10,993 nucleotides of DNA from Deltaproteobacteria bacterium (GTDB lineage: Bacteria; JAUYMQ01): positions 1-10,993 of the forward strand of contig JAUYMQ010000558.1 in assembly GCA_030698575.1 (NCBI GenBank), given 5' to 3'. The notes beneath the pieces were generated by a model. That model ran no database searches and had not been told where the DNA came from. It worked only from the letters and a program-made list of their open reading frames with translations. Positions 1 through 4,244 of the stretch are shown piece by piece (the stretch's first letter is position 1; each line of letters opens with the position of its first letter). The translations under genes were made by a program, and so were the position numbers.

Positions 1-27
1 CCGGCGCGAAGGCGAACGCCGGAAAGA

Positions 28-55
28 AGAAGGCCGGGCAGGTGCCCGGCCTTCT
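28..55 (-). terminator. Rho-independent terminator of the leftward envelope cluster
   Basis: A 12-bp perfect stem (28-39 paired with 44-55) closes on a 4-base loop. Read leftward it is followed by a short T-rich tract (TTCTTT, positions 27-22). It begins 22 bases past the stop codon of the TIGR04073-like gene, so it most likely ends transcription of the three-gene leftward cluster. The T tract is interrupted, which lowers certainty slightly. Confidence 0.75.
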
Positions 56-77
56 CATGCTGGCGATGTGGCGCCGA

Positions 78-455
78 CTATTCCTGGAAGAGGGTTTCCG
101 GATCGAGCACCGGCTTGTAGTAGCGGGGGGAGGGGACGGCGAAGAACACCGTCTCGTACACACCTCCCCAGCCCCGGTCGCCTGCCTTCACGATGCCGTC
201 CGCGGTTCCCCAGAGGATGGCCGTGAAGGGGTCGCGTTGGTCGAAGTAATCGACCCACGCCATGGGCAGCTCCATCCAGAACGTGAGATCGTTCACGAGC
301 CCACGCCCAAGCTTCTTCATGATTTTCGAGCCGTCGCCGTCGTTCTCGTCGTAGTTCATGTCGGCCCTGGCTGAGGCGGGCGCCCCAATGAGCGCCGCGA
401 TCAGCGCCAGCACGACAAGGCACCTCGTCATGATTCTCATCGTCTCACCTCTCAT
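78..455 (-). CDS. Small exported protein resembling TIGR04073 (exosortase system-associated)
   Basis: This is a 125-residue protein with a signal peptide: hydrophobic core at about residues 13-25 and a likely cleavage after ASARA (about 27-31). The mature part (46-122) has the pattern I associate with TIGR04073: KK..RG..N....W.ELP, then a glycine-rich middle and a C-terminal F..P.P..Y.P...PE. TIGR04073 proteins are small, exported, and named for co-occurrence with exosortase systems; their biochemical role is unknown. No exosortase or PEP-CTERM substrate lies in this window. The start at 455 has GGAGGT seven bases upstream; an alternative ATG at 440 also has a GAGGTGAG-like site and would shorten the n-region by five residues. 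The same domain type ends the OmpA-family protein next door, and the two copies align without gaps over their core. Family assignment is from memory of the pattern, not a search. Confidence 0.72.
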   Translation of the reverse strand: MRGETMRIMTRCLVVLALIAALIGAPASARADMNYDENDGDGSKIMKKLGRGLVNDLTFWMELPMAWVDYFDQRDPFTAILWGTADGIVKAGDRGWGGVYETVFFAVPSPRYYKPVLDPETLFQE

Positions 456-546
456 GTCTCTGACCTCCAGTCTTCGCTCCTCGGATAGGTCGCCCGCCGT
501 GGCCGCGCGCGCGGCTGTCAGGCACCGCGGATCCCGCGGAGCAAGG

Positions 547-1548
547 TCAGAAGATGTGCCTCAGATCAAGGATGTCGGGATCGAGCGTCGACCAGTCCTC
601 CGGAAGCGGGATGAAGAAAGTACCCAGCTCGAAGGCTCCGGCCGCGGTGCGTCGGACTCCGTCGGCAACCCCGTGAGGAATGCCGTAGCCGGTGCCCGTG
701 AGCAGATCGCGGTCAGCAACTTCCTGGGAGAAGGTCTTGGGAAGATCGATCCATCCCACCGACAGGTTGTAGGCCCCCCGGCTGAACTTCTTGCCGATCA
801 CATCCAGGTAGTCGTCTTCCTGGTTGGGATCGAGATCCATCTGCGTCGGGAAGTCGTAACCGGCCGGTGCATCGAGCATCTCCGGCGAGTCGGCGTAGCC
901 GATGGGGTAGGTCCGCATGACCCTGAAGCCCACACGGCGGTTCTCGACTCGCCCCTCCCGCGAGTTGTTGCTGGCGACGGGGTCGAACTCGCCGTAGGGG
1001 GCCGTTACGACCCGGCTCGGGGCGATGCCGTGATCCATGAAGTACTGGGCCACGGCTTCGGCGCGCCGCTCGGACAGGTGGAAGTTGTAATGGGCCGTGC
1101 CCGGATTTGACGTGTGCCCGGATACCTGGACCGTCGTGTCGTCCTCCCACTCGAGGACGGCGATGGCCTCGTCGAGCTGAGGCGACTGCATGGCTTCGAC
1201 CAGGGCCGAATCGTTTTCGAAGAGCACGCTCCCGAACACGATTTCGGGGCGCTGGGCCGTGAGGATCGCCCAGACGCTCTTCACCGCCAGCCTGCCGGCC
1301 TCGAGGTGATCGTCGGTGTCGTCGTCCCACTCGTTGAACTCCGCCTGCGCCTCGCCGAGATGCATCGAGGCCTTGCCCAGGTCCTCCGGCGCGCGTTTGA
1401 GCGCCCCGGCGCCCTTGGCCCGCTCGACGGAGTCGCGCAGCTTGTCGATCTCGTGTTGCGTGTCTTGCCGCGTTGCGCAGCCGCCGAGAAACAGCGTGAC
1501 GGCCAGGAACGCGACACCTATGGGAACTCCCCTCAAGAATGGCTTCAT
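547..1548 (-). CDS. OmpA-family lipoprotein: DUF4398-like N-terminus, OmpA domain, TIGR04073-like C-terminus
   Basis: This is a 333-residue outer-membrane lipoprotein. A signal peptide ends in lipobox LGGC with Cys24 as the lipidation site; Ala25 at +2 fits sorting to the outer membrane. Residues 30-98 form a helical, DUF4398-like segment. Residues 101-210 are an OmpA C-terminal peptidoglycan-binding domain, with GHT (144-146), YN..LSERRA (154-163) and NRRV (203-206). The aspartate that normally follows GHT and contacts diaminopimelate is Ser147; the partner arginine (Arg162) is kept. Residues 252-326 resemble TIGR04073, and KK..RG..N....W..LP aligns without gaps to the small downstream protein. 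AAGGAGG precedes the ATG at 1548. It probably tethers the outer membrane to the cell wall, and the C-terminal domain may recruit an unknown partner. The OmpA call is secure; the two flanking domain calls are pattern-based. Confidence 0.88.
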   Translation of the reverse strand: MKPFLRGVPIGVAFLAVTLFLGGCATRQDTQHEIDKLRDSVERAKGAGALKRAPEDLGKASMHLGEAQAEFNEWDDDTDDHLEAGRLAVKSVWAILTAQRPEIVFGSVLFENDSALVEAMQSPQLDEAIAVLEWEDDTTVQVSGHTSNPGTAHYNFHLSERRAEAVAQYFMDHGIAPSRVVTAPYGEFDPVASNNSREGRVENRRVGFRVMRTYPIGYADSPEMLDAPAGYDFPTQMDLDPNQEDDYLDVIGKKFSRGAYNLSVGWIDLPKTFSQEVADRDLLTGTGYGIPHGVADGVRRTAAGAFELGTFFIPLPEDWSTLDPDILDLRHIF

Positions 1549-1571
1549 GAAAACCTCCTTGGACTGCGGCG

Positions 1572-1620
1572 GCGGCCGGTATTGCGACTGGCCGCGGCGC
1601 GCGCTTACGCTTCGCGAAGC
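1572..1620. repeat. Intercistronic dyads between the DUF4398-like gene and the OmpA-family gene
   Basis: Two dyads occupy the 78-base gap. Positions 1572-1579 pair with 1588-1595 (8 bp including one G-U, 8-base loop). Positions 1609-1620 are a perfect 12-base palindrome (GCTTCGCGAAGC) seven bases past the upstream stop codon. Neither is followed by a T tract, so a terminator is unlikely. An mRNA-stabilising or attenuating hairpin, or chance in GC-rich DNA, are both possible. Confidence 0.3.
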
Positions 1621-1626
1621 CCCGCC

Positions 1627-1935
1627 CTAGTCGGTGAAGGACTGCATCGTGGTGGATTTATCCGCAAGCTTCTTGGCTTTTCGGGCGAAGCATGCCGCCT
1701 TGCCGTAATCCATCTCGTCGTACTCGGCACGGGCCGCCGTGAGGGCCGCCTGCGCCTTGTAGAACTGGTAGCGGCCGTAACGGGTCACACCCGACTCGGC
1801 CGCCGTAACTGCCGCCGACGCCTCGTCGATCGTGTCCTGGACCTCGTACATTCCCGCTCCCATGAGGGGAAGCGCGAGAATGAGAATCAAGGGCAGCTGA
1901 ATAAGCGCCGCCCACCCCCGCGTTGTTCGTATCAT
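1627..1935 (-). CDS. Small exported helical protein, DUF4398-like
   Basis: This is a 102-residue protein with an N-terminal hydrophobic segment (about 10-28) acting as a signal peptide or membrane anchor. It has no cysteine there, so it is not a lipoprotein, unlike many DUF4398 proteins. The rest (about 31-95) is an alanine-rich, charged helical pair with regularly spaced Ala (KAQAALTAARAEYDEMDYGKA), as in DUF4398, a family of unknown function often found beside OmpA-domain proteins. The N-terminal segment of the OmpA-family lipoprotein downstream is similar in pattern (KA..L.EA.AEF.E), so the two may interact as helices. The start is well supported by AGGAGGT six bases before the ATG. It is the first gene of the leftward cluster. 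The family call is by pattern only; coding status is likely from context, start signal and the signal sequence. Confidence 0.68.
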   Translation of the reverse strand: MIRTTRGWAALIQLPLILILALPLMGAGMYEVQDTIDEASAAVTAAESGVTRYGRYQFYKAQAALTAARAEYDEMDYGKAACFARKAKKLADKSTTMQSFTD

Positions 1936-2011
1936 TTATAGACCTCCTCGTTGCCCGCAGCGACCGGCGCGGATAGGGATTTGCCCGGACGCTGATACAC
2001 AGCTTGGTGGG

Positions 2012-3098: not shown

Positions 3099-3449
3099 AT
3101 GGAGCCGAAACGCATCAAGGAACGTCGCCGGGAAGCGAGAAAAGATTTCGTCATCGGGGTGGCTTACCAGACGGTGGACGAGGTGTTCACGGATTTCAGC
3201 ACGAACATCAACGACGGCGGGATGTTCATCGAGACGCGCAAGCGGCACAAGCCGGGCGCCAGCGTGCGGCTGGAGTTCAGCCTTCCGGGTTCGGAGCGCC
3301 CCATCAATGTATGGGGTCGGATCGCCTGGGTCCGCCCGCCCGACCAGGCGGATCAGGAGCCACCTGGCGTCGGTATTCAGTTCGAGGATCTCTCTGCGGA
3401 GGCCAGGGATGAAATCAACCGCATCGTGAGGAAGCTCAGGGTGGCCTGA
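3099..3449 (+). CDS. Stand-alone PilZ domain protein (TIGR02266-like)
   Basis: This is a 116-residue single-domain protein. PilZ domains bind cyclic di-GMP and pass the signal to partner proteins. The Arg-x3-Arg motif is present near the start (Arg10 and Arg14 in RRREAR). The second motif, usually (D/N)xSxxG, reads Asn36-Ile-Asn38-Asp-Gly-Gly41, with Asn in place of Ser. NINDGGMFIET, the middle GRIAWVR and the closing GVGIQFEDL match the TIGR02266 subgroup first described in Myxococcus. It has no membrane segment and no output domain, so it would act as a cytoplasmic adaptor. A GAGGGAG site lies just upstream of the ATG. It follows radC after 48 bases and probably shares its promoter. Whether it still binds the nucleotide with the Ser-to-Asn change is unknown. 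Confidence 0.85.
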   Translation: MEPKRIKERRREARKDFVIGVAYQTVDEVFTDFSTNINDGGMFIETRKRHKPGASVRLEFSLPGSERPINVWGRIAWVRPPDQADQEPPGVGIQFEDLSAEARDEINRIVRKLRVA

Positions 3450-3491: not shown

Positions 3492-4244
3492 TTAGAAGGG
3501 GATGTCGTCGTCCTGCCCGCCCTGTGATCCCGAGGCCGCATCGGACACCTGAGAGCTTCCGTTGCTGTCCTGGCGTCCTTCCTCTGTCTTCGATCCAAGC
3601 ATCTGCATGTTGTTCATTACGCACTCGGTCGTCGACTGGGTGGTCCCTTCCTGATTGGTCCACTCGCGCGTCTGGATTCTCCCCTCGGCGTAGATGCGCT
3701 TGCCCGGGGTCAGATAGCGCGAACAGATCTCGGCGAGCTTTCCGAAGGCCACCAGCCGGTGCGTCTCGCTGCGCTCTTCGGGCTCCCCTTCGCGGTTCTG
3801 CCGCTGCGTGGTGGTCACGATATTGAAGTTCACGACCTCACGGCCGGAGGGGAGCGTGCGGAGCTCGGGAGCCTGATCGACCTTGCCGATCAGGATTGCC
3901 TTGCTCACCTCGTCGCCCTCGCCGAGGACCAGCACGTTCGTGGCGATCACCTCGGTGGTGAAGCGCTTGTTGCCTTCCTTGTCTTCCCACTGGCGGGTGC
4001 GCAGGCGCCCCTCGACGTTGACCTGCTTTCCCTTGAAGACGCTCTTCGCGCAGTAGTCCGCGAGGCGACCGAAGGCCGCGACGCGGTGCCACTCGGTGTG
4101 CTCCTCGCGCTCGCCGTCGCGGTTGTTCCAGTTTTCCGAGGTGGCCACGCTGAAATTCGCGACGGAGCTTCCCGAGGGAAGGAACCGCACCTCGGGATCG
4201 CGTCCCGCGTTGCCCACGAGGATGATCTTGTTGACGCTGGCCAT
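3492..4244 (-). CDS. ssb: Single-stranded DNA-binding protein with two tandem OB folds
   Basis: SSB coats single-stranded DNA during replication, repair and recombination. At 250 residues this one is longer than the usual 150-180 because the OB fold is duplicated: copy 1 is about 1-108, copy 2 about 113-217, with a constant offset of 109 over the compared stretch. A short Gly/Ser/Gln-rich linker ends in DDDIPF (245-250), the tip that recruits partner proteins. Copy 1 keeps the three tryptophans known to stack on DNA in E. coli SSB (Trp39, Trp52, Trp86 here). Copy 2 keeps only the third (Trp195); the others are Arg148 and Thr161. By analogy with Deinococcus SSB it probably works as a homodimer with four OB folds but two tails. 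The start is firm, with AGGAGG upstream of the ATG. It converges on the PilZ gene; I see no clear terminator in the 42-base gap. Confidence 0.95.
   Translation of the reverse strand: MASVNKIILVGNAGRDPEVRFLPSGSSVANFSVATSENWNNRDGEREEHTEWHRVAAFGRLADYCAKSVFKGKQVNVEGRLRTRQWEDKEGNKRFTTEVIATNVLVLGEGDEVSKAILIGKVDQAPELRTLPSGREVVNFNIVTTTQRQNREGEPEERSETHRLVAFGKLAEICSRYLTPGKRIYAEGRIQTREWTNQEGTTQSTTECVMNNMQMLGSKTEEGRQDSNGSSQVSDAASGSQGGQDDDIPF

Follow-up and report, generated by a model that had tools for sequence, protein, structure and literature searches.

The OmpA-family lipoprotein described here ends in a segment that, judged by its profile match and its residues, is homologous to TIGR04073, and its gene is followed by that of a free TIGR04073 protein; such an OmpA-TIGR04073 fusion is rare or unique in our sample. 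The cluster lies in the window, by which we mean the whole stretch of 10,993 nucleotides analysed, and its three leftward genes (Table 1) are transcribed in the order DUF4398-like gene (gene 1), fused 333-aa lipoprotein gene (gene 2) and free TIGR04073 gene (gene 3). These frames and their order had already been read in a first-pass annotation, and the coordinates match, the interval 78-1935 spanning all three. The explanation to which we incline, giving it about even chances of being right, is that the lipoprotein of a widespread DUF4398 pair gained a C-terminal hairpin in this lineage, next to a free TIGR04073 gene, and would hold this module at the outer membrane. The cluster is a new arrangement of known parts, in which the OmpA-TIGR04073 join alone is unusual, and not a new kind of system.

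Table 1. Features of the three-gene cluster, in window coordinates
Feature	Position	Strand	Basis
Gene 1, 102-aa exported DUF4398-like protein	1627..1935	-	PF14346 and independent profile
Gene 1 ribosome-binding site, GAGGAGG	1943..1949	-	sequence upstream of ATG
Gene 2, 333-aa lipoprotein, DUF4398-like + OmpA + TIGR04073-like	547..1548	-	profiles, GC3
Gene 2 ribosome-binding site, AAGGAGG	1554..1560	-	sequence
Gene 2 signal peptide, lipobox LGGC, predicted lipidated Cys24 then Ala (not Asp)	1477..1548	-	translation
Gene 2 DUF4398-like helical segment, residues 33-88	1285..1452	-	PF14346 and independent profile
Gene 2 OmpA-like domain, residues 109-204	937..1224	-	PF00691, 72.2 bits, E 4.8e-20
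Gene 2 codon of Ser147, position of the diaminopimelate-binding Asp of OmpA domains	1108..1110	-	alignment
Gene 2 C-terminal TIGR04073-like helical hairpin, residues 252-315	604..795	-	TIGR04073 profile, model
Gene 3, free TIGR04073 protein	78..455	-	TIGR04073, 60 bits, E 1.8e-16
13-bp perfect G+C-rich hairpin, then T-rich stretch, after gene 3	27..56	-	fold of 77 nt past stop

The ribosome-binding sites of genes 1 and 2 are strong by sequence, and the true start of gene 3 is probably the ATG at 440, with AGAGGTGA directly upstream. The G+C-rich hairpin 3' of gene 3, which is absent from the list given by a consensus scan, is probably the end of the transcription unit. Could the join be an assembly or binning chimera, absent from the living genome? 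The architecture is unique in the survey and comes from a single 4.1-Mb MAG in 653 contigs, with the cluster at a contig edge, but we consider such an artefact very improbable. Indeed, the 333-aa frame is open throughout and is read as one gene because its GC3 is high (0.75-0.92) in every segment, linker and hairpin included; the ribosome-binding sites are intact, and the fused domain is far from every other TIGR04073 sequence and a copy of none.

Elsewhere in the window we noticed a LolA gene 6 kb from the cluster, a gene for a PilZ/TIGR02266 protein at 3099-3449 (+) and, at 3492-4244 (-), a single-stranded DNA-binding protein whose single 250-aa chain contains two OB folds (two PF00436 stretches). 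Two-OB-fold proteins of this kind are best known in Deinococcus-Thermus.

Against the curated NCBIfam cut-off of 50 bits for TIGR04073, gene 3 scores above the threshold over residues 45-120, and the gene 2 C-terminus reaches 45.1 bits (E 8e-12) in the protein scan and 48.2 bits in the genome scan. By these scores the fused domain is a homologue lying outside the curated membership, and the assignment of both copies to TIGR04073 in the earlier annotation is borne out. The pattern conserved in the family is an N-terminal K-(F/L)-x-R-G-x-x-N, then E/D-x-P, then G-x3-G-x3-G, R and G. In alignments of 16 to 66 sequences the fused copy keeps K254, R257, G258, N261, P270, G285, G289, G293, R300, G304 and F311, and thereby every invariant residue of the series K, R-G-N, P, GxxxGxxxG, R, G and F; family-wide, G285-G289-G293, R300 and G304 are conserved at 0.89-1.00.

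The same two-helix hairpin is predicted for the free and fused copies. In the AlphaFold2 model of gene 3, whose signal is of the signal-peptidase-I type without a lipobox Cys (by inspection), the helices span 41-71 and 76-103 (pLDDT about 93, 66 aligned sequences), and in the fused copy 241-279 and 282-309 (pLDDT about 93-97). Helix 1 is amphipathic, with a mean moment of 0.53 and a mean hydrophobicity of 0.10, and neither helix resembles a plain transmembrane segment. Sequence searches of the PDB and Foldseek searches gave no convincing solved structure resembling the hairpin: the VPS13 C-terminal regions found by sequence (E 0.2-0.4) and the Foldseek matches, none better than E 3, were taken as chance. 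As there is no PDB fold match (best E 3), it is the character of the sequence that suggests a membrane role, and TIGR04073 may be a glycine-zipper-like hairpin that serves in packing helices or in binding the membrane surface. In the TIGR04073 variant encoded at another locus (L205, 1426-2235, -), the glycine-rich stretch separating the helices is longer (VKGAYIGAYDGGLQGYLAGSTNGYVAGFFSG), possibly an extended zipper.

How are the two copies of the window related? Their alignment runs gap-free from K253/K47 to the P.P, as the first-pass annotation had described for the C-terminal domains, with 30% identity; compared as domains, the two are 28% identical. By identity, the nearest sequences are those of Mariprofundus for the fused domain (40%) and of Omnitrophota for the free one (44%). 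The tree puts the free domain in a mainly Sumerlaeota clade (99/93), both window domains having long branches and weak placements there. A recent tandem duplication of the hairpin is ruled out by the low mutual identity together with the separate branches. The pairing of free with fused copies that had been proposed finds no sequence support, since the two resemble each other less than they resemble distant homologues (28% versus 40-44%).

The DUF4398-like parts are more remote. Gene 1 has a signal peptide ending ...LMGAG with no lipobox Cys (by inspection), and matches PF14346 (DUF4398) with 22.3 bits (E 1.9e-4, residues 35-92); gene 2 matches it with 22.0 bits, and both lie below the gathering score of 27.9. 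A profile built independently from 30 other DUF4398 segments gave 26.3 bits for gene 1 and 22.0 bits for gene 2, with shuffled sequences at 7.3 or less (n=900). The weak Pfam matches thus exceed chance, which supports remote homology and the identity proposed earlier for both segments. BLASTP found no alignment between the two segments, which are connected through the family profile only. The gene 2 segment is modelled by AlphaFold2 as three helices (pLDDT about 75-84).

Without its C-terminal hairpin, the pairing of genes 1 and 2 is a known and ordinary one. DUF4398 and OmpA share one open reading frame in about half of 30 strong DUF4398 loci, and at L190 and L191, which come from unrelated genomes, the gene immediately before a DUF4398-OmpA lipoprotein gene is a small DUF4398 gene, so that, as in the window, a small exported protein adjoins an OmpA-family lipoprotein. 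We take PA3691 of Pseudomonas to be a DUF4398 protein, and the PA3691-PA3692/LptF pair probably belongs with the DUF4398-OmpA pairs. PA3691-PA3692 (lptF) has been treated as one unit (PMC3855792), and Paraliomyxa miuraensis has the same kind of neighbours in orf8 (DUF4398) and orf9 (OmpA) (PMC10051162). Against the LptF model, residues 39-207 of gene 2 itself score 82, far below the cut-off of 400. None of the DUF4398-OmpA proteins fetched was found to have a C-terminal TIGR04073 domain, whereas gene 2 has one. The best NCBIfam match of its OmpA part is the YiaD type (NF053611; 103 bits, below the cut-off of 175), likewise a lipoprotein in which a glycine-patterned helical module accompanies an OmpA domain. 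The glycine-zipper part of YiaD is N-terminal and of another family, whereas gene 2 carries its helical module at the C-terminus.

The lipobox of gene 2, FLGGC-A at residues 20-25, is that of a bacterial lipoprotein by inspection, as had been called earlier, and the Ala at +2 points by the usual rule to an outer-membrane lipoprotein, so that the product is probably destined for the outer membrane. Its OmpA-like domain scores well above the PF00691 gathering cut-off of 27.2 and has PDB homologues that include PA0833, YiaD and YfiB; the AlphaFold2 model of gene 2 is good for the hairpin only, fair for the N-terminal helices and of low confidence for the OmpA domain. The first-pass annotation had carried over to this protein the general statement that OmpA domains bind peptidoglycan. 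In Acinetobacter baumannii OmpA, D271 and R286 are required for diaminopimelate binding (PMC6572160), and PA0833, which keeps both equivalent residues, binds peptidoglycan in vitro (PMC5974059). Gene 2 keeps the Arg (Arg162) and has Ser147 in place of the Asp, which is present in 22 of the 22 other OmpA domains compared. The PDB alignments place an Asp of PA0833 and of Rv0899 at this position, another OmpA protein encoded by this genome (L011) retains it, and the spacing is identical, with 15 residues between D271 and R286 and between S147 and R162. Because Ser147 replaces the conserved diaminopimelate-binding Asp, cell-wall binding by this domain appears doubtful, and the general statement is unsafe to transfer. 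The substitution makes this a naturally occurring OmpA domain that perhaps binds the wall unusually, if at all.

We then asked how rare the fusion and the gene order are. TIGR04073 was searched in four samples, and positive genomes numbered 39 of 40 in the phylum of genome G012, 23 of 386 in a diverse set, 182 of 334 in the phylum of G323 and 19 of 395 in that of G346. The phylum of G012 is indicated to be Sumerlaeota, as L092, L116 and L108 repeat loci L019, L023 and L031, and that of G323 to be Omnitrophota, as its locus L041 branches with an Omnitrophica MAG (99/93). The scan for loci used a 4-sequence TIGR04073 alignment, a 16-sequence one being too divergent. With the whole fused protein as query, a scan of genome contigs gave no relative. 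An OmpA profile run on all open reading frames revealed no second fusion among about 190 TIGR04073 domains read, of which 167 distinct ones are in loci L001-L146, read with about 1.5 to 6 kb of flank, the run covering L177-L212 as well; within the fetched loci, only Nitrosomonas ureae and one Verrucomicrobiales MAG have an OmpA gene within reach of TIGR04073. Among the matches listed and unfetched, most open frames are of 105-210 aa, too short for such a fusion; the frames examined leave out one of 314 aa in genome G095. The three-gene order was not found in the other genomes examined, the relatives compared being of the same domain and none of the same phylum.

That the architecture had not been described, as the first annotator believed, agrees with this survey and with a search of a literature collection in which no paper mentions TIGR04073. 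The same annotation had staked its reading on two points: the profile match of the C-terminal segment to TIGR04073 was found (E 8e-12), and the conservation of the neighbours was not, the order being seen in none of the other genomes examined, all of them from other phyla.

A Pfam check of open frames of 233-809 aa for further fusions yielded one partner only, PilZ; the 809-aa frame of L189 was dismissed as an overlap whose true start lies inside. In an Omnitrophota MAG (L107, 3965-4672, +) a signal peptide and a TIGR04073 hairpin are followed in frame by PilZ (52 bits). As PilZ is normally cytoplasmic, this is either an odd protein or a fused-gene artefact. With this one exception, the TIGR04073 members seen are small free exported proteins, whereas the gene 2 copy, which shares their signature residues and predicted fold, forms the tail of an OmpA lipoprotein.

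These observations bear on another origin, in which a DUF4398-OmpA gene upstream of a tandem TIGR04073 pair happened to join the first copy in one lineage, the product being tolerated with no need for joint work. Tandem TIGR04073 genes are the rule in Sumerlaeota, where nearly all genomes have them, and occur in Omnitrophota, UBP3 and Geobacteraceae; the separate PilZ fusion indicates that the module occasionally joins its neighbours, and the long branches of both window domains would fit as well. But the fused copy keeps its signature residues, which argues that the module is still constrained after fusion. We regard this chance fusion as a serious contender, less probable than the tethering explanation.

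A third possibility is that the cluster is an accessory of an exosortase system and helps to sort or export PEP-CTERM proteins or extracellular polysaccharide. TIGR04073 itself bears the name exosortase system-associated protein. The genome encodes one exosortase (TIGR02602, 180 bits), gives 15 PEP-CTERM matches over the cut-off and carries a third TIGR04073 gene (151 aa) on a different contig, C502. In the diverse set an exosortase was matched in 13 of 23 TIGR04073 genomes versus 51 of 363 others (Fisher p 7e-6, odds ratio 8, kinship ignored). But profile scans found no exosortase, PEP-CTERM or polysaccharide gene within the window, and 10 of the 23 TIGR04073 genomes, Sumerlaeota G012 and G087 included, gave no exosortase match; the link is therefore a loose one, and we consider an accessory role decidedly unlikely. 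The survey of such genes proposed by the first-pass annotation thus finds both in the genome and neither nearby. On C502 (L009, 6664-10030), the third TIGR04073 gene lies between a CstA-like carbon-starvation gene and a Flp-type pilin gene (by inspection).

How might the fused protein work? In the tethering explanation, the lipoprotein would be anchored in the inner leaflet of the outer membrane through lipidated Cys24, with the DUF4398 helices as a spacer or partner-binding segment and the OmpA-like domain extending toward the cell wall. The amphipathic, glycine-zipper-like hairpin would pack on other such hairpins or on the membrane surface, and the lipoprotein would thereby hold at the outer membrane a hairpin module that is otherwise free. 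Beyond the domain identities, the gene order, the export and lipoprotein signals (by inspection) and the predicted GxxxGxxxG hairpin established above, we infer the outer-membrane destination, the packing of the hairpins and the joint action of the three products in one complex. This explanation draws on the domain matches, the lipobox, the ribosome-binding sites and the continuous coding, on L190, L191 and the DUF4398-OmpA frames, and on the hairpin predicted for both copies, the conserved G and R residues, the amphipathic helix 1 and the Sumerlaeota tandems. Against it stand the lack of a relative of the same architecture, Ser147, the low identity of the two copies, the missing fold match and the origin of the cluster in one MAG contig, at its edge. 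Of the earlier interpretation, the domains, the lipoprotein and the exosortase-bearing genome hold, the conserved order and the pairing find no support in the genomes and sequences compared, and the wall binding is weakened.

A bolder version, which we consider unlikely, is that the OmpA lipoprotein, no longer dependent on standard diaminopimelate binding, carries the TIGR04073 hairpin and anchors it to the outer membrane, and that free hairpins assemble with it there into an envelope structure linked to exosortase-type surface proteins. If true, this would be a first way into the function of TIGR04073, which in apparent Omnitrophota reaches up to 15 copies in one genome. In conclusion, TIGR04073 occurs widely among Sumerlaeota and Omnitrophota, where a genome often has many copies, and its fusion to an OmpA lipoprotein hints physically at a periplasmic site of action for the hairpin, at the outer membrane.
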